In this document: positions 11,031 to 56,395 of the stretch, piece by piece
How the letters are laid out: each line of letters starts with the position of its first letter
How positions within the stretch are numbered: position 1 is the first letter of the stretch
Origin: an uncultured Alphaproteobacteria bacterium
GTDB lineage: Bacteria > Pseudomonadota > Alphaproteobacteria > RF32 > CAG-239
DNA: 64,000 bases
Reading direction: 5' to 3'
NCBI GenBank assembly: GCA_944392295.1
Contig: CALXWE010000005.1
Coordinates: 1-64,000, forward strand
The notes under the pieces: generated by a model
Database searches by the model: none
Told to the model about the DNA's origin: nothing
Seen by the model: only the letters and a program-made list of their open reading frames with translations
Program-made: the position numbers and the translations under genes

Positions 11031-11976
11031 GTAAGCCTCCTTTAGTTTCATCAAGCGGAGATTTAACGGCGAATCTGAGTTTAGCCGAGCGGGAGCGAGG
11101 GTTAGCGGCGCATTCTTGTTCAGACGGGTTAATAGCTTTAGAAACTTGAGTAAAAACCGTAGGTTTAAGGGGTTGAGATATTTGGGGCATATAGCGAGAT
11201 ACGCCGGCGGATTTTCCGTTTAAAGAGTTAAAAAAGTTTTTAACGATTCTGTCTTCAAGGGAGTGAAAATCGACTACGACGATTCTCCCCTGAGGGTTTA
11301 AGAGTTCGGTAGCCTGTGCAAGACCGTTTTTGAGTTCTTGGAGTTCATCATTAACGGCGATTCGCAAAGCTTGAAAGGTGCGAGTTGCGGGGTGTATGGC
11401 ATTAAAAGAGGGTTTAATTACCGAGCAGATAATTTGCGCCAGTTCGGTAGTTGTTTCAATTTTTTTATTTTGGCGATAGAGGGCGATTTTATGGGCGATT
11501 TGGCGTGATTTTTTTTCTTCGCCGAAATTATAGATTAAATCGGCAAGTTCGTGTTCGTCCATTGAGTTAACGATATCGGCGGCGGAAAGCCCGTTACAAG
11601 ACATACGCATATCAAGCGGGGCTTCTTTATTAAAAGAAAATCCGCGTAGAGGTTCATCAAGTTGCATAGAAGAAACGCCGATATCAAAAACAAAACCGTC
11701 CACGGGATTAGAGATAAGTTCTGCAATATTACCGAAGCGGCCGGATATAAAGGTAAAGCGGTTACCGAATTGTTGTTTAAATTCTTGAGCTCTGGGTAAA
11801 ACGTTAGGGTCGCGGTCAATAGCGATAAGGTTGCATTTAGCGGCATTAAGGATAGCAAGTGAGTATCCGCCGTTACCGAATGTGGCGTCCACATAAGTTT
11901 TATTATCTTGAGGGTTTAGGTATTCTAAAACCTCGTTGAGCATAACCGGAAAATGTTTATTATTAGCGGTTATCAA
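11023..11976 (-). CDS. rsmH: 16S rRNA m4C1402 methyltransferase RsmH
   Basis: RsmH (MraW) methylates N4 of C1402 in 16S rRNA using S-adenosylmethionine. The 317-residue protein has the SAM-binding motif DATFGNGGYS and the family signature GVSSMQLDEPLRGFSF. The start is a TTG at 11976 with GGAGG six bases upstream; it must be used because the conserved N-terminal HFPVMLNEVL lies before the first ATG. The TTG overlaps the mraZ stop as TTGA, the equivalent of an ATGA coupling. Confidence 0.95.
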   Translation of the reverse strand: MITANNKHFPVMLNEVLEYLNPQDNKTYVDATFGNGGYSLAILNAAKCNLIAIDRDPNVLPRAQEFKQQFGNRFTFISGRFGNIAELISNPVDGFVFDIGVSSMQLDEPLRGFSFNKEAPLDMRMSCNGLSAADIVNSMDEHELADLIYNFGEEKKSRQIAHKIALYRQNKKIETTTELAQIICSVIKPSFNAIHPATRTFQALRIAVNDELQELKNGLAQATELLNPQGRIVVVDFHSLEDRIVKNFFNSLNGKSAGVSRYMPQISQPLKPTVFTQVSKAINPSEQECAANPRSRSAKLRFAVKSPLDETKGGLHD

Positions 11977-12446
11977 AGTTCACCTCCGTTTTTAGAGGCA
12001 TTTAAGACGGGTCTTTTTTTCAAGACTTCGGCACGGATGCGAGCTTCTTCTTTTTCCCAATTTTCGGGGTTCCAGATTTGAAATTTACGACCTTTACCGA
12101 CAAACACGGCGGTATCGGTAATTTGGGCGTGTTTCAAGAGTTTTTCGGTTAACAAGATACGCCCGGTAGTATCAAAGGTAAAGCGTTTAGCATCACCAAA
12201 GATAAGGTTAGTTAAGTCATCTTGAGTTTGGGAGAAAAAGTCGGTTGAAGTTTCAATTTCGGAAGCAAGTTTTTCCAGCAGATCTTCAACACAACCTTCA
12301 ATACAAGGGGCAGTCAAGCTCCTATAGCAAACAATTTCGGAGTTAAGCTCTTTAACAATGGCACGATAATCGGCAGGTAGCGAAACTCTGCCTTTAGCAT
12401 CAACCTTGTTGATGATTGTGTCCATAAAGAGAAAAGTTTTTCTCAT
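11973..12446 (-). CDS. mraZ: Transcriptional regulator MraZ
   Basis: MraZ represses its own division/cell-wall operon. The 157-residue product has two SpoVT/AbrB-like domains, with the first signature VDAKGRVSLPADYR near residue 15 and the second FDTTGRILLTEKLLKHA. It is the first gene of the cluster. The start at 12446 is chosen over an ATG at 12425 because GGATAGG lies upstream, but this is not certain. Four direct repeats upstream are suitable MraZ operators. Confidence 0.94.
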   Translation of the reverse strand: MRKTFLFMDTIINKVDAKGRVSLPADYRAIVKELNSEIVCYRSLTAPCIEGCVEDLLEKLASEIETSTDFFSQTQDDLTNLIFGDAKRFTFDTTGRILLTEKLLKHAQITDTAVFVGKGRKFQIWNPENWEKEEARIRAEVLKKRPVLNASKNGGEL

Positions 12447-12519: not shown

Positions 12520-12766
12520 ATTTTAGTATTTTGTTAACTGTTCTTGTTTTGTTCTATTGTAGATTCAATAAGATACGTCAAAAAGCGCAGAAAGCTAAGG
12601 GTGATAAAAATGATAAAAAAAAGTAAAAAAATGTGAAAAAAATAGTGAGTTGTTTAAAAGTTTTCAAAACACTCAATGGAAGTAGCATTTCAGGCGATTC
12701 GCAAGATGTTTAGGAATCGATTTTGGGAAAGATTACAAAGTCTGAAATAAAATATTTAAAAAGGGA

Positions 12767-12793
12767 AAAACGGCACTTAAGAAGCGCCGTTTT
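12767..12793. terminator. Terminator-like hairpin at the edge of the Bacteroidetes-like island
   Basis: The stem AAAACGGC/GCCGTTTT is extended by CTT/AAG around an A-C mismatch. T runs occur on both strands. It lies in the 400-bp gap 12447-12846, which otherwise holds only the MraZ operator and AT-rich sequence. A second hairpin, AGCCC/GGGCT with a T run (12823-12848), points to the right on the plus strand, where there is no matching gene. Confidence 0.55.
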
Positions 12794-12846
12794 TCTAAAT
12801 AATAATTTTGGGAGAACACCATAGCCCGCCTCCCATTGGGCTTTTT

Positions 12847-13584
12847 TTATTTCGCTCTGACACGGTTGCGTCCGCAACCGAAGTTGAACCCGAGCTGGAT
12901 ATATACCGAGCCCTGAACCCTTGTGTCATTGACATAGGTGTTAGGCAGGGTTTTGTACCCGGCTCTAACGGTGAGCGAATTTCCGGTGGCGAAGAACTGG
13001 CATCTGTATTCCAGTCCTCCACCGTAGGTTATACCGCTACCGTTATGTTTTATGGTAGTGGTATATGTGCCTTCCTCGGTCTCAGTTTCTACGGCGTAAC
13101 GATGCCTACCGTAGAGGTAGCCTACATTTCCGTAGAGGGAAAGGACATTTACATGCCACCCTTTGTTGAGGAGGTTGACATGGAACGCAGCGTCTGCTGC
13201 GTAGCTCCAATATCGCTTTCCCGGCTCTATAGATTCGGCATTATACTGCCTCGTCAGAGCCGAAGCTGAAACCCTGTACGACACCTTTTTGGCATCGTAC
13301 CGGAAGGAGAGGCCCATCTCCGGCGTGAAATATTCTTCCGGGAGCACGTATAAAGCTCCTGCAAATATTTCAACGCCGAAGCCCTCTGAATCAGCACTTT
13401 TCAAGACCGTCCCGTCCGAAGCCTGATAGGCTTGAATGTACGGGAGTGCTTCTAACCTTTCCTGCTCGTAGGCAGAAAGCGAGGCATCCCCGTTTTGGGA
13501 ACGGTTCATTTTGAACTCCTGTGCCGATGTCACCACCGGGGCCATGGTCAGCATGACTGCCATGGCTATAATTATTTTTTTCAT
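12847..13584 (-). CDS. Putative outer-membrane beta-barrel protein (Bacteroidetes-like)
   Basis: This 245-residue protein has a signal peptide ending VTSAQ, a style common in Bacteroidetes. The mature part alternates short amphipathic strands (GLSFRYDAKKVSYRVSASAL, LYGNVGYLYGRHRYAV, YGGGLEYRCQFF) and ends in a strand-like VYIQLGFNFGCG. This resembles small barrels such as the conjugative-transposon protein TraO, but the match is only general and low confidence. The leader lacks a ribosome site. GC content is visibly higher than in neighbours. It follows the large lipoprotein gene at 13722 in the same orientation (137-bp gap). Confidence 0.7.
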   Translation of the reverse strand: MKKIIIAMAVMLTMAPVVTSAQEFKMNRSQNGDASLSAYEQERLEALPYIQAYQASDGTVLKSADSEGFGVEIFAGALYVLPEEYFTPEMGLSFRYDAKKVSYRVSASALTRQYNAESIEPGKRYWSYAADAAFHVNLLNKGWHVNVLSLYGNVGYLYGRHRYAVETETEEGTYTTTIKHNGSGITYGGGLEYRCQFFATGNSLTVRAGYKTLPNTYVNDTRVQGSVYIQLGFNFGCGRNRVRAK

Positions 13585-13721
13585 ACCATTTTGGTTTTAA
13601 GAGAGGCGGATGGAAGATAATTTAATATCCGCCTCTCTGTATGTTGTGTTCTGTTTATCATTTTTATACTTGAAACAACATCAAACAAAACATTCAAATA
13701 TGTCGAATCAAGATTTTTTGC

Positions 13722-16127
13722 TTATCGCAGCTGCATAACTATCTGCCCATTATAGCTAATGGTGAGAACGCCATTCTCGGAAGACGAGAAGGTGTAGCCA
13801 TCAACTACATGAGAGAAGTTACCGTCACGCCAGTTCCACATAGCAAGGATGTACTTGCTAAGAGAACGAGTGACGACACCATTGTTGCTGTATATGATCG
13901 GATATTCATCCGAACGATACTCAGCAACTGCCGGAGCCCACTTGCCAACGGCATAAGAACCGTGGTTAGCGGAAGTGGTAAAATATCCGGAGTTGTACTC
14001 TTCGTTGAAGTTTCCTTCAACGAAGTAGCCAGCCAGGATATTGTTCACCTCCGGAAGGGTCTCGCTCATAGCGAACGGTACAGCCACTGCGCCGTTTTCG
14101 GTTCTGATAACGAGGCACTTCTTGGCATGGTCGCCAGCAGCCTCATCATCTGCCGGAACGGCAGATATACCAGCACCCAGAATCTTACCCCATTCTTCAG
14201 GGAGAGATTTCGGGAGGACAGCTATTTTAGCCTCAGCTTTCGCAGAAGCGTTGTAGCTATCACCAGAAATTGCGTAAACGGTGTTGATGTTGTTGACATA
14301 GTCGTAAACATCATACTGTGTTCCGTTTATGGTCTCCCTGGTCGGAGTAGCAGAGATACTTGAACCAGCTTCTACAATCTGCCAGTCAGCGTAGTCGAAT
14401 GACAAAGTATAGTACTCGTCGCTGTACACAGCCTTCTGGTAGTCATAGCTGTAGACATTCTTGAACACGTCAATACCGTTGTTAGCAGTAGATGAATACT
14501 GCATGTAACGGGTTGTAACAGTCCAGTTGCCCTGCTGGCTGGATGTCTCGTTTATCATAGACGAGCCGTTAGCCACGGTGGTATACTGGTTATTAGCCGT
14601 GTATATCCACTGGAGCTGAGGCTCACTGAAGTGACGATATAAATTCAGAGATATCTCACGAGTTTTCTCGCCTGATACGCTCCAAATCTCCACTTCCGTC
14701 CAACTAATCCTTTCGGTGTTGGCATCCACAACAACGCGAGACAAATTCTCGTATCTCTTGCCGACGATTTCATCAACCACCGGCTCAATTTCAAGAGCAC
14801 GCTCATAGGGGACAGCTACCGTATAGGTAGTCACATCCTCGGCGGCTTTGGTCTGTGCCATCGGGTTTTCCTTTTCCACCTCCACATCAAAGTAGAGGGT
14901 TATGGTAACGACCCTCAGTTCGTCATTGCTGGCGGCAGCATTTTCAGCAACCTCAGATCTGTTAAATCTGATGTTTCTGATACTGCTGTATACGAAAGTT
15001 GTATCACCATAGGCGAGGCTTTCGTAGTTCACACCGGCTTTGACTGCCTCACCCTCGTTGAACTTAAAGTTGTAGTCCAGTGAGGTAGCCGAGGTTACAA
15101 ACCTGCCGTCAGGAGTTCTCTTAACAACATCGGCGCTGTGCGACGAGTTAGAAAGAGATACCTCTGAAAGCTGTGCTTCAGTCTCCACATACACCCTCTC
15201 GGGCTGTGTAAAGAGTGCCTCAAGGTTGAGAGCCTTGAGGAATGCATCCCGGGAGATTTCTTCCTCGCCGTTCTTGTAAACGACGAGTTCTCCGGAGACT
15301 TCTTGAAGCTTTGTCTCCAGTGCCAGGGAGGCAACTGCAAACTCGGCTTCATATCCCGTATTCTCCACGACGGTTTCGTACTCGTCGGGAACAGGGACTT
15401 CCCCGTTCTTGTAAATACGGACATACGGTACACGTACCGTAAATGTCTCGTCGTAAGAACGTTTTTCGCACTTAACCTCAACATTGAAGTAAAGGTTAAC
15501 ATCAAACACGGTGGAGTCCGTGTTTGACAATGCCTGGTTTTCCTTTGCCTCAAACTTGTTATAAGAGACATTGGAAACCTCTGCGTATGCGAAGAGGGTG
15601 TCGGGGTTCTCCGACTTCAGAGCCTGCCACATAGCATTAGCAGAAACCTTCTCATTTGCATTAAATACAAATGAGTAGTCCCTGTTGTAGCTGATAGTGG
15701 TGAACTCATCATCCTTTTCCTCAGAAGAGGAAATTTCAGATTCGTTCTGACTCTTCAGAGCAACTTCTCCCAAGAGGTTCTCTTCAGCCACATACACCTT
15801 TTCAGGTGTCAGGCTAAAGTTGACCTCAAGGTTCAGATCTCTTGCAAATTCTTCTTCATGCAAGATGTCCTCACCCTGGAAGAAAACCTTCTCTCCGTAG
15901 ACACGCTGTTCTACGGTAAAAAGCTGATACGCAAGCGTATCAAACTCCAGAGAAAGCCCGGTATTTTCATACCGCATCCCTTCTTCCCCGGGGTTTTCAT
16001 TTCCTTTGAACTCCTGGTCAATACCCAAATGGGTTGTTGACCATTCCTCTTTTGAACAAGAGGAGAAAACGTTCATGGCGGCGATGGCAGCTACTGCGAT
16101 GGCCGCGAAAAATCTCATTCTTTTCAT
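13722..16127 (-). CDS. Large duplicated-domain lipoprotein, Bacteroidetes-like, function unknown
   Basis: The product has 801 residues. The lipoprotein signal MKRMRFFAAIAVAAIAAMN ends in FSSC followed by SKEEW, a typical Bacteroidetes pattern. After it come two similar ~200-residue modules (YENTGLSLEFDTLAYQL... and VENTGYEAEFAVASLALE...), each with PE-(K/R)-VYV, a YxFxFNxxE strand, an F(N/D)VEV strand and VPY(V/E)R. A Tyr/Ser/Asn-rich C-terminal domain ends YTFSSSENGVLTISYNGQIV. ATG 16127 follows AAAATTCAAAAAT, an SD-less leader. GC content and codon choice differ strongly from the flanks. A surface-lipoprotein role is inferred; no enzyme motif is seen. Confidence 0.78.
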   Translation of the reverse strand: MKRMRFFAAIAVAAIAAMNVFSSCSKEEWSTTHLGIDQEFKGNENPGEEGMRYENTGLSLEFDTLAYQLFTVEQRVYGEKVFFQGEDILHEEEFARDLNLEVNFSLTPEKVYVAEENLLGEVALKSQNESEISSSEEKDDEFTTISYNRDYSFVFNANEKVSANAMWQALKSENPDTLFAYAEVSNVSYNKFEAKENQALSNTDSTVFDVNLYFNVEVKCEKRSYDETFTVRVPYVRIYKNGEVPVPDEYETVVENTGYEAEFAVASLALETKLQEVSGELVVYKNGEEEISRDAFLKALNLEALFTQPERVYVETEAQLSEVSLSNSSHSADVVKRTPDGRFVTSATSLDYNFKFNEGEAVKAGVNYESLAYGDTTFVYSSIRNIRFNRSEVAENAAASNDELRVVTITLYFDVEVEKENPMAQTKAAEDVTTYTVAVPYERALEIEPVVDEIVGKRYENLSRVVVDANTERISWTEVEIWSVSGEKTREISLNLYRHFSEPQLQWIYTANNQYTTVANGSSMINETSSQQGNWTVTTRYMQYSSTANNGIDVFKNVYSYDYQKAVYSDEYYTLSFDYADWQIVEAGSSISATPTRETINGTQYDVYDYVNNINTVYAISGDSYNASAKAEAKIAVLPKSLPEEWGKILGAGISAVPADDEAAGDHAKKCLVIRTENGAVAVPFAMSETLPEVNNILAGYFVEGNFNEEYNSGYFTTSANHGSYAVGKWAPAVAEYRSDEYPIIYSNNGVVTRSLSKYILAMWNWRDGNFSHVVDGYTFSSSENGVLTISYNGQIVMQLR

Positions 16128-16493
16128 ATTTTTGAATTTTTTATTTTTTATTATTTCTTTTTTTAAAAATGAAAAAACAGATTTTAAGCACACCAAAATG
16201 TTATGAAAAATCTTTTCAATTTTCCAATAATGTCCATAAAAGCATACATAATCCTTATTTTTCTATTCTAATCTAACATAAAAAATACCAAAACACAAGC
16301 AAAAAACGTACGATTTTGTAAAATTTTGTCTATTATCGTCGTACAGCATTTATAACGGCTGTTTCTTGTTTATAAGCAGTTGTTTGTACGCTATAAAAGC
16401 CTCGCTTGCCGGTCGTTGTAGACAAATTTTGACAATAAGCTCATCTCGGGCGAAAAATAAGCACATTACTTATTTACCGACGTTAAAAATAAC
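16128..16493. other. AT-rich gap beside the island with an imperfect inverted repeat
   Basis: No credible gene is present. 16317-16332 and 16419-16434 form a 14/16 inverted repeat (TGTAAAATTTTGTCTA against TAGACAAATTTTGACA) about 86 bp apart. CGTACGA and TCGTCGTAC lie around the left arm. This could be a regulator site pair or a trace of a mobile element; I cannot decide from sequence alone. Confidence 0.35.
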
Positions 16494-16711: not shown

Positions 16712-16942
16712 ATGAAATTAAATTCTTATATTCGCCGCAGGTTAGGGCGGCTACTCACCACATCGCGCCAAGACAGAAATTTGCATCTGGCTTATGTTGC
16801 TAAAGCTCTTAATATTTCCGTTCATGAACTTGATAGCATTGAAATAGGTTGTAAGAGCGCTAACTGGCGTAAATATCAAAAGTTGCTGGATTTTTATAAG
16901 CAGTCGGTCGAAGTTAGTCTGATAGATAACCCTAAACTTTAA
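16712..16942 (+). CDS. Small helix-turn-helix (XRE-like) protein
   Basis: This 76-residue basic protein has an HTH pattern (LHLAYVAKALNISVHELDSIE, then a second helical part NWRKYQKLLDFY) like Cro/CI-type regulators. The start ATG has AAAGGAG upstream. It lies directly behind the structured RNA candidate and ends at a bidirectional terminator. It may regulate its own leader or the island to its left; this is inference from position only. Confidence 0.65.
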   Translation: MKLNSYIRRRLGRLLTTSRQDRNLHLAYVAKALNISVHELDSIEIGCKSANWRKYQKLLDFYKQSVEVSLIDNPKL

Positions 16943-17000: not shown

Positions 17001-17738
17001 TTAAATCATTGCCATACCGCCGTTAACGTGCAAGGTTTGACCGGTAATGTATTGAGCCTCGTCCGATACCAAAAAGGCTACGGCGTTAGCAATGTCTTGA
17101 GCTTCGCCGAGTTTGGCTTCCGGAATTTTCTTTAATAAAGCAGCTTTTACATCTTCCGGCAAAACATCGGTCATCGGGGTGCGAATAAAGCCCGGAGCTA
17201 CCGAGTTTACGGTAATGCCTCTTGAACCAACTTCTTGAGCCAAGCATTTGTTCATGGCAATCATACCGGCTTTAGATGCCGAATAGTTAGCTTGACCGGC
17301 ATTACCCATAACGCCAACAACCGAGGCAATACCTACAATACGACCGTATCTTCTCTTCATCATGCCTCTAACAACAGCTTTGGCAAGCTTGAAACCGGCT
17401 GTTAAGTTTACATCTAATACCAACTGCCATTCTTCATCGCTCATACGCATAAATAAATTATCGCGTGTTAAACCGGCATTGTTAATCAAAATATCAATTT
17501 GACCGAATTTAGCTTCAACTTCTTTAATTAAGTTGGCAATTTCTTCAGCTTTGGATAAGTTAGCTACAAAGCATTCAACTCTTTCGCCTAATTCGGCTTT
17601 TAATTGTTCCATACGCTCGGCACGCATATCGGTCAATGCCAAAGTGGCACCCTGAGCATGCAATGTACGAGCAATTTTATCACCCAAACCGCCGGATGCA
17701 CCGGTAATTAAAGCAACTTTTCCATCAAGTCTAAACAT
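17001..17738 (-). CDS. fabG: 3-oxoacyl-[ACP] reductase FabG
   Basis: FabG reduces 3-oxoacyl-ACP with NADPH in fatty acid elongation. The 245-residue short-chain dehydrogenase has the cofactor motif TGASGGLG at residues 12-19, NNAG (about 86-89), the catalytic Ser in GIASVVG, and the Tyr-Lys pair in NYSASKAG. It follows fabD with a 21-bp gap, so they form one operon. The usual acpP and fabF genes do not follow; a terminator does. Confidence 0.96.
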   Translation of the reverse strand: MFRLDGKVALITGASGGLGDKIARTLHAQGATLALTDMRAERMEQLKAELGERVECFVANLSKAEEIANLIKEVEAKFGQIDILINNAGLTRDNLFMRMSDEEWQLVLDVNLTAGFKLAKAVVRGMMKRRYGRIVGIASVVGVMGNAGQANYSASKAGMIAMNKCLAQEVGSRGITVNSVAPGFIRTPMTDVLPEDVKAALLKKIPEAKLGEAQDIANAVAFLVSDEAQYITGQTLHVNGGMAMI

Positions 17739-55706: not shown

Positions 55707-56201
55707 ATGATAACAGATAAGTTAGAAATGGCAGAAAAAGATGTATATGCTGCCATAACATTGGGGACATCCGTTATTTTCGGTTACATAACGGTAGAAC
55801 TCGGAGAATTTTTGGAGGCATACTATCAACTTAACAGATGGCAAAAAAAGCTTGGAAAAGGAAACATGACGACGCTTGACAAGCTTTTAGCGCGTTATGA
55901 ATACGAGCTTGGCAATTACAAGTTTTTAGCTGATAAGTATGTTCAAATGCGAGACAAGCTCGAGGATATTCTGCGTAAGAAGAGTGGAGAATCGTATCAG
56001 GAAGATTTACGCATTTCGGTAGAATATCTTATGGAGCTGCTATCTGCTGACGAAGATATTCCGCAGGAGGATATGTCTGAGGAGGCATTGAATCACATGG
56101 AAGAAGTAATGTCAACGATGACCAAAGAATCCGAGGTGGTTGATAAAGCCGGAAAAATGGGCTTTTTATACATACCGATTGGCAAAGGTCCCGTCAGTTA
56201 A
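55707..56201 (+). CDS. Orphan 164-residue protein (SD-less gene)
   Basis: This is an acidic, mostly helical protein (YEYELGNYKFLADKYVQMRDKLEDILRKK) with a possible weak hydrophobic helix near residues 16-32. No family recognised. The leader AATAATTTACAAATT-ATG has no ribosome site. A strong terminator follows. It stands alone between uvrB and tRNA-Ile and shares the cassette-like layout of the genes at 8036, 22468, 59365 and 63025. Confidence 0.7.
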   Translation: MITDKLEMAEKDVYAAITLGTSVIFGYITVELGEFLEAYYQLNRWQKKLGKGNMTTLDKLLARYEYELGNYKFLADKYVQMRDKLEDILRKKSGESYQEDLRISVEYLMELLSADEDIPQEDMSEEALNHMEEVMSTMTKESEVVDKAGKMGFLYIPIGKGPVS

Positions 56202-56318: not shown

Positions 56319-56395
56319 GGGCCCTTAGCTCAGTTGGTTAGAGCAGGCCGCTCATAACGGTCTGGTCGTTGGTTCGAGTCCATCAGGGCCCACCA
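56319..56395 (+). tRNA. tRNA-Ile (anticodon CAU, lysidine-modified)
   Basis: A 77-nt tRNA. The acceptor GGGCCCT pairs with AGGGCCC, then A-CCA encoded. The anticodon stem GGCCG/CGGTC has loop CTCATAA (CAT). The sequence follows the pattern of E. coli tRNA-Ile2 (GGCCCCTTAGCTCAG...CTCATAA...GGGGCC) and not elongator or initiator Met, so C34 should be changed to lysidine by the TilS encoded at 5296. A terminator (56398-56427) follows. Confidence 0.88.

Follow-up and report, generated by a model that had tools for sequence, protein, structure and literature searches.

Why should an alphaproteobacterium carry two neighbouring genes whose composition, translation starts and signal peptides all recall the Bacteroidetes? 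The question is raised by a stretch of 64,000 nucleotides (the window), the first 64 kb of the 127.6-kb contig CALXWE010000005.1 from an uncultured alphaproteobacterium of the GTDB lineage RF32; CAG-239 (assembly GCA_944392295.1; 1.43 Mb, 24 contigs, completeness 99.3%, contamination 0.11%). The two genes are LIP, which encodes a modular lipoprotein, and OMP, whose product is a probable outer-membrane β-barrel protein. A sequence-only reading of the window had picked out both genes, which the list of open reading frames (ORFs) confirms in place, on the minus strand, and had proposed that they came from a gut Bacteroidetes, with misassembly as a further possibility. We conclude instead, with a probability of roughly 0.7, that LIP and OMP, probably a surface lipoprotein and its barrel partner, belong to a protein family specific to this lineage and make up a two-gene locus that is native rather than recently imported.

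Distribution and inheritance of the gene pair

Profile searches place LIP in the window's own family. A narrow profile (A4) matches in 39 of 152 genomes of that family, in 7 of 16 genera, and a broad one (A6) in 64 of 123, in 11 of 16 genera, some of the latter matches being prophage relatives. Across a class-wide sample of 385 genomes, LIP is present only in the two genomes drawn from the window's genus, and in no other family. The LIP profiles match nothing in draws of 15 and of 393 Bacteroidales genomes, nor in 395 genomes of Bacteroidota; that they do work is clear from the positives, namely the two congeneric genomes of the class sample and the 64 of 123 in the family. Both same-genus genomes, G001 and G002, carry the two genes side by side, at other loci, and this presence in all three genomes of the genus runs contrary to a recent transfer.

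The family is inherited vertically within genera. In a tree of 45 LIP domains, six genera each form a single clade, and the five changes counted are the minimum. G001 and G002 group as sisters, the window's LIP branching outside them, followed by genus g5 and then g14, and a host tree built from three proteins has the same arrangement; support for the relative order of g1, g5 and g14 is weak in either tree. The window's LIP is 56-59% identical to those of G001 and G002 and its OMP 63-67%, the OMP gene adjoining LIP in both genomes, while G001 and G002 share 68-70% identity over the pair. Among other proteins compared across the same genomes, those we take to be TilS, RsmH and Pal show 53-55%, 68% and 94-96% identity, respectively. 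The pair thus evolves at the pace of other fast genes, its identities lying within the range of these proteins (53-96%).

The association of the two genes is equally conserved, and the earlier suggestion that OMP is the partner of the lipoprotein is borne out at the level of gene order. For 21 of 22 collected OMP relatives a co-directional lipoprotein gene lies immediately upstream, 43-241 nt away (the exception is in G015), and in three g11 genomes OMP stands between two lipoprotein genes. The barrel assignment is probable from sequence patterns: two Pfam barrel profiles, OMP_b-brl (PF13505; E 1.9e-4) and OMP_b-brl_2 (PF13568; E 0.0075), each match one of the 22 relatives weakly, and the window's OMP itself has no match to either and no Pfam family above cut-off. 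As in SusC/SusD pairs, a lipoprotein gene adjoins a gene for an outer-membrane protein; unlike SusC, OMP, with 245 residues, is too short by far to be a TonB-dependent transporter. The SusD-like_3 domain (PF14322) was absent from the one genome searched, that of the window, whereas a Bacteroides control gave a match. We found no account of the LIP/OMP family in a limited literature search, which is thin evidence.

Translation starts and lipoprotein signals

The starts of LIP and OMP are as the sequence-only reading described them, neither having a Shine-Dalgarno (SD) match of at least three bases, and the same holds throughout the family. None of 55 LIP/OMP starts has three or more SD bases, compared with four or more in 161 of 363 neighbouring genes (p 2e-13, tested at four or more), a control rate that is a lower bound, as control starts were chosen mechanically. 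The AGGAG sites claimed for the surrounding genes were thus confirmed only in part, in a count that is probably an underestimate given uncertain starts. The signal peptide, rather than upstream sequence, was used to set the 55 starts; the LIP set excludes five prophage or distant matches as well as partial ORFs, and one OMP (L197_7) is not counted, its signal having escaped the regular expression. One LIP start in the count (L204_6, TTG), and possibly a second (L029_2), is probably mis-set.

In place of an SD site, the family has adenines at a fixed distance from the start codon. Position -13 is A in 52 of the 55 starts, across all seven genera in the set, against 195 of 363 neighbours, and in 44 of 46 when one gene per genome and kind is taken (paralogues not being independent); at least three adenines fall within -14 to -11 in 48 of 55 starts, against 116 of 363. 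The frequencies of A at -14, -13, -12 and -11 are 79, 94, 82 and 71% for LIPs and 81, 95, 90 and 57% for OMPs, with almost no G. In neighbouring genes G peaks at -10 to -8, and it occurs within -20 to -8 in 88% of them but in 9% of family starts. Motif scores are higher than for shuffled versions of the same sequences (p 9e-19), and the motif is fixed in place and not mere AT-richness. When it was run on the control genes, further lipoproteins of the same class came near the top. At -1, T is found in 85% of LIPs and 57% of OMPs, that is in 75% of family starts, compared with 61% of 83 annotated Bacteroides plasmid genes, which show the same A tendency more weakly, and 33% of neighbours.

These features closely resemble the non-SD initiation regions of Bacteroidetes. 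For Flavobacterium johnsoniae, PMC6847099 describes adenines over-represented from -14 to -11 as characteristic of Bacteroidetes and perhaps a site for bS1, and there too SD sites are lacking and G is avoided (PMC6847099, PMC3155529). In Bacteroidetes, non-SD starts are found phylum-wide; here they set a single class of genes apart from the rest of the genome, which has the usual G peak. Translation of both LIP and OMP would begin without an SD site at the A-rich stretch, thought in Bacteroidetes mRNAs to be a zone of S1 contact.

The lipoprotein signal points the same way. The signal forms reported for the two proteins, FSSC|SKEEW for LIP and VTSAQ for OMP, are both present, and the CSKEEW of LIP fits the optimal lipoprotein export signal (LES) of Capnocytophaga, C-X-K-(D/E)2-X (PMC5080379). 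In the family, residues +2 to +6 after the cysteine include on average 2.0 acidic ones, whereas the mean is 0.45 for 11 other lipoproteins encoded at these loci (p 9e-6), and serine precedes the cysteine in 80% of the family and 18% of those 11; the family figures come from 50 sequences, a few of them probably misplaced by the regular expression, and the controls number only 11. The acidic N-termini of the family thus resemble Bacteroidetes surface-export signals. Unlike LES, the family's signals vary, many having D or E at +2, and no export machinery is known here. LIP would be exported and lipidated at Cys24, and is probably displayed at the surface.

Competing explanations for the Bacteroidetes-like features

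The reported rise in GC content is real, and the codon-usage check that had been proposed supports it. GC content is 50.8% for OMP and 46.7% for LIP, whereas the 51 genes in the window with 130 residues or more average 40.2% (sd 3.2), and GC at third codon positions (GC3) is 0.58 and 0.53, against 0.37 (sd 0.06); OMP and LIP rank first and second of the 51 both for GC3 and for codon-usage divergence. This atypical composition, with the start and lipoprotein signals, would fit a recent transfer from a gut Bacteroidetes. Such a transfer is nevertheless rejected as highly improbable, because genus and family show a vertical pattern, the sampled Bacteroidota yielded no donor, and a leader element (below) is common to this locus and to genera g5 and g14. 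Even less credible is a chimera with Bacteroidetes DNA: the assembly is in 24 contigs and GC jumps at the borders of the island, but contamination is estimated at only 0.11%, SusD-like_3 is absent, and the same pair, with the same signals and leader, recurs in G001, G002 and other genera, which makes misassembly very unlikely. Composition, missing SD sites and signal peptides can together mimic recent transfer, and call for caution in such cases. What appeared to be a transfer becomes a one-lineage proteobacterial family that bears another phylum's start and lipoprotein signals in every genus sampled.

How, then, did the signals get there? An acquisition long ago, in which a founder pair came from Bacteroidota or another non-SD donor before the genera split and kept its signals while its coding sequence diverged, is compatible with a native locus and is a serious possibility, though one we do not favour. 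The A motif at -14 to -11 is that reported for Bacteroidetes (PMC6847099), T at -1 is frequent both in the family and in Bacteroides plasmid genes, the lipoprotein signals are acidic and GC3 is raised. The OMP profile also finds 13 weak matches in 393 Bacteroidales genomes, but these (E 4e-5 to 9e-4) lie mostly over the signal-peptide end and are not taken as homology. Against such an origin, LIP has no relative in the Bacteroidota draws or among plasmid and phage records, and the Bacteroidetes -7 promoter element TAnnTTTG is not enriched upstream of LIP. The class may go back to a gift from a non-SD organism long ago, or it may have reached its signals independently, by convergence. A different view would make the starts passive, with AT-rich leaders that belong to poorly expressed genes and involve no dedicated mode of initiation; A-rich leaders are indeed common in AT-rich genomes, but the fixed position of the A-run and the scarcity of G make this unlikely, and 20 of 71 exported-like controls have at least four SD bases, even though at least 11 of the 71 belong, by the tree, to the same lipoprotein class. 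A bolder reading, less likely than not, is that one genome holds two start grammars, SD genes beside a class of surface lipoproteins and barrels with a Bacteroidetes-type A signal at -14 to -11, maintained by selection in several genera, and LES-like export outside Bacteroidota. If functional, the start motif would offer a natural comparison of SD and non-SD initiation within the same cell.

Several observations weigh against a native, lineage-specific locus. Presence is patchy, and some of the 64 genomes with matches to the broad profile are counted for prophage proteins with nothing but the C-terminal domain in common with LIP. The Bacteroidota were sampled, not exhausted, the draws of 15, 393 and 395 genomes overlap, and module A of LIP was not searched in whole Bacteroidota genomes. 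The odd composition extends beyond the window, as in 22 of 29 genomes the pair has a higher GC3 than the genes around it (mean difference +0.086; p 8e-5); this fits either foreign genes or a special constraint, and the excess is not universal, values being lower than those of neighbours in G020, G024, G532 and others. Structure models of LIP and OMP are poor (mean confidence, pLDDT, 35 and 33), so that the proposed barrel and binding functions depend on patterns in the sequences. Finally, gene neighbourhoods vary even within the genus, and the pair therefore moves.

Architecture and surroundings of the locus

The features of the locus are collected in Table 1. The likely start of LIP is the ATG at 16127, a TTG-initiated ORF reaching 16196 being merely the longest mechanical frame.

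Table 1. Features of the LIP/OMP locus, with flanking genes and related prophage proteins
Feature	Position	Strand	Description
mraZ	11973-12446		flanking neighbour gene
Terminator-like hairpin	12765..12795	minus	behind the OMP gene
OMP	12847..13584	minus	245 aa, probable outer-membrane β-barrel, signal peptide end VTSAQ (ORF list)
A-run of OMP start	13595..13598	minus	at -14..-11; no Shine-Dalgarno
Intergenic hairpin	13600..13638	minus	stem of 12 bp; hairpin stops 15 nt short of the OMP ATG; no T-run after
LIP	13722..16127	minus	modular lipoprotein of 801 aa with a signal, modules A1, A2 and B, and a C-terminal domain
C-terminal domain	13725..14207	minus	about aa 641-801 (hhalign, A6 vs A8)
Module B	14208..14774	minus	about aa 452-640 (profile A4 positions 1-190)
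Module A2	14799..15365	minus	about aa 255-443; 38% identical to A1
Module A1	15417..15968	minus	about aa 54-237 (module-versus-module alignment)
Lipobox and acidic export-like signal	16044..16067	minus	FSSC-SKEE (then W)
A-run of LIP start	16138..16141	minus	at -14..-11; no Shine-Dalgarno
Conserved leader element	16203..16219	minus	TTGAAAAGATTTTTCAT, small hairpin or palindrome; exact match
Candidate extended -10 promoter element	16270..16280	minus	inferred from conserved TATG-TA-ATT block in leader alignment
fabG	17001-17738		flanking neighbour gene
g3 prophage virion-region proteins	L213:5440-6132, L214:5962-6702, L223:5319-6038, L220:5109-5849		

LIP does contain the two modules of about 200 residues predicted for it: A1 and A2 are homologous, with 38% identity over 192 columns (E 7e-31). 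Module B is repeated in relatives from other genera, up to five times in G020 by profile A4, and its number differs among lipoproteins whose length, partial ones included, ranges from 224 to 1710 residues. The G020 lipoprotein also has Pro/Glu/Lys/Asp-rich repeats. In that genome, L039:11705-12556 and L031:3-677 are apparently one lipoprotein split across two contig ends within a long EEPKDEPKDEPTV repeat, and repeats of this type probably break assemblies at these lipoprotein genes. In variable repeat number, fast divergence and the repeats of G020, the family is like modular adhesins with Ig-like repeats; unlike them, it shows, among 19 members searched with Pfam repeats, only one fn3 match (E 0.0084), in a single member.

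No family in Pfam, NCBIfam or PHROG matches LIP, nor does any phage or plasmid record. By sequence, the PDB gave nothing for profiles A1 or A6 and one match for A5 (E 0.033), over the signal-peptide end. Pattern scans of genome and viral contigs with the single LIP sequence, and of viral contigs with profile A4 and the prophage profile A8, were likewise negative, though as they required short exact stretches this is weak evidence. A relationship with prophages is seen: the C-terminal domain is shared with a protein of genus g3 (hhalign probability 99.4, E 3e-21) that is encoded between virion genes and consists mostly of this domain. That protein matches no phage record, and the g3 prophage genes with the domain carry SD sites. 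The sharing hints that the C-terminal domain is a binding domain. Most likely the LIP modules form an adhesin-like or ligand-binding stalk that bears this domain, with OMP as a co-expressed barrel partner in the outer membrane. Without an entry in the three family databases, the LIP family offers good candidates for surface adhesins of an uncultured lineage.

Two hairpins may bear on expression. The leader element is the only site in the window with fewer than three mismatches, and its 15-base core, G(A/G)AAA(A/G)ATTTTTCAT, precedes 10 of 34 LIPs, which belong without exception to g1, g5 and g14, but none of 359 controls; the second lipoproteins of g5 lack it, and some g3 leaders have a longer hairpin with the same GAAAAG...CTTTTC base. 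The form GAAAAGATTTTTCAT is also seen in the leaders L028, L029, L033, L034, L039, L191, L192, L194 and L195, from three genera, and might act either as a hairpin in the RNA or as an operator in the DNA. Transcription of the pair probably begins upstream of LIP, at a promoter of the ordinary housekeeping type, and runs through the leader with this small hairpin. The intergenic hairpin folds at -22 kcal/mol (z -6.0), and a stem with at least six GC pairs lies upstream of 10 of 21 OMPs, but of none of 34 LIPs or 149 controls. The likely role of the intergenic hairpin is to protect or insulate the LIP message and to set the ratio of LIP to OMP. Its closeness to the OMP start has a parallel in Prevotella, where a hairpin about 20 nt upstream was no hindrance to translation (PMC3155529). 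Downstream of OMP, the one Rfam match, at 12750-12836 (minus strand) to a nematode small nucleolar RNA overlaps the terminator-like hairpin; at 29.5 bits, against a gathering score of 60, it is put down to chance.

No empty site can be defined for the pair, because no fabG-side gene adjoins mraZ in ten other genomes. LIP/OMP loci of different genera share some neighbours, which we name from their sequences as, presumably, fabD-ftsK (G000, G028, G562), pgk-gapA (G001, G581), an MlaC-like gene (g11 and G581) and RNase J-birA (G002, G553); the loci concerned are L197, L029, L201, L034, L194 and L028. This suggests a pair moving, as it were, among a few old sites, but it comes without a chance model and is not relied on. 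Just upstream of LIP and divergent from it, a gene with an SD site (16712-16942, plus strand) encodes a 76-residue helix-turn-helix protein, which matches HTH_31 below the cut-off (E 3.5e-5) and is a possible regulator. Elsewhere in the window, a 164-residue protein (55707-56201, plus strand) without a Pfam match has a start that scores high (8.6) on the LIP/OMP start motif, and its gene is followed directly by a tRNA-Met gene at 56319.

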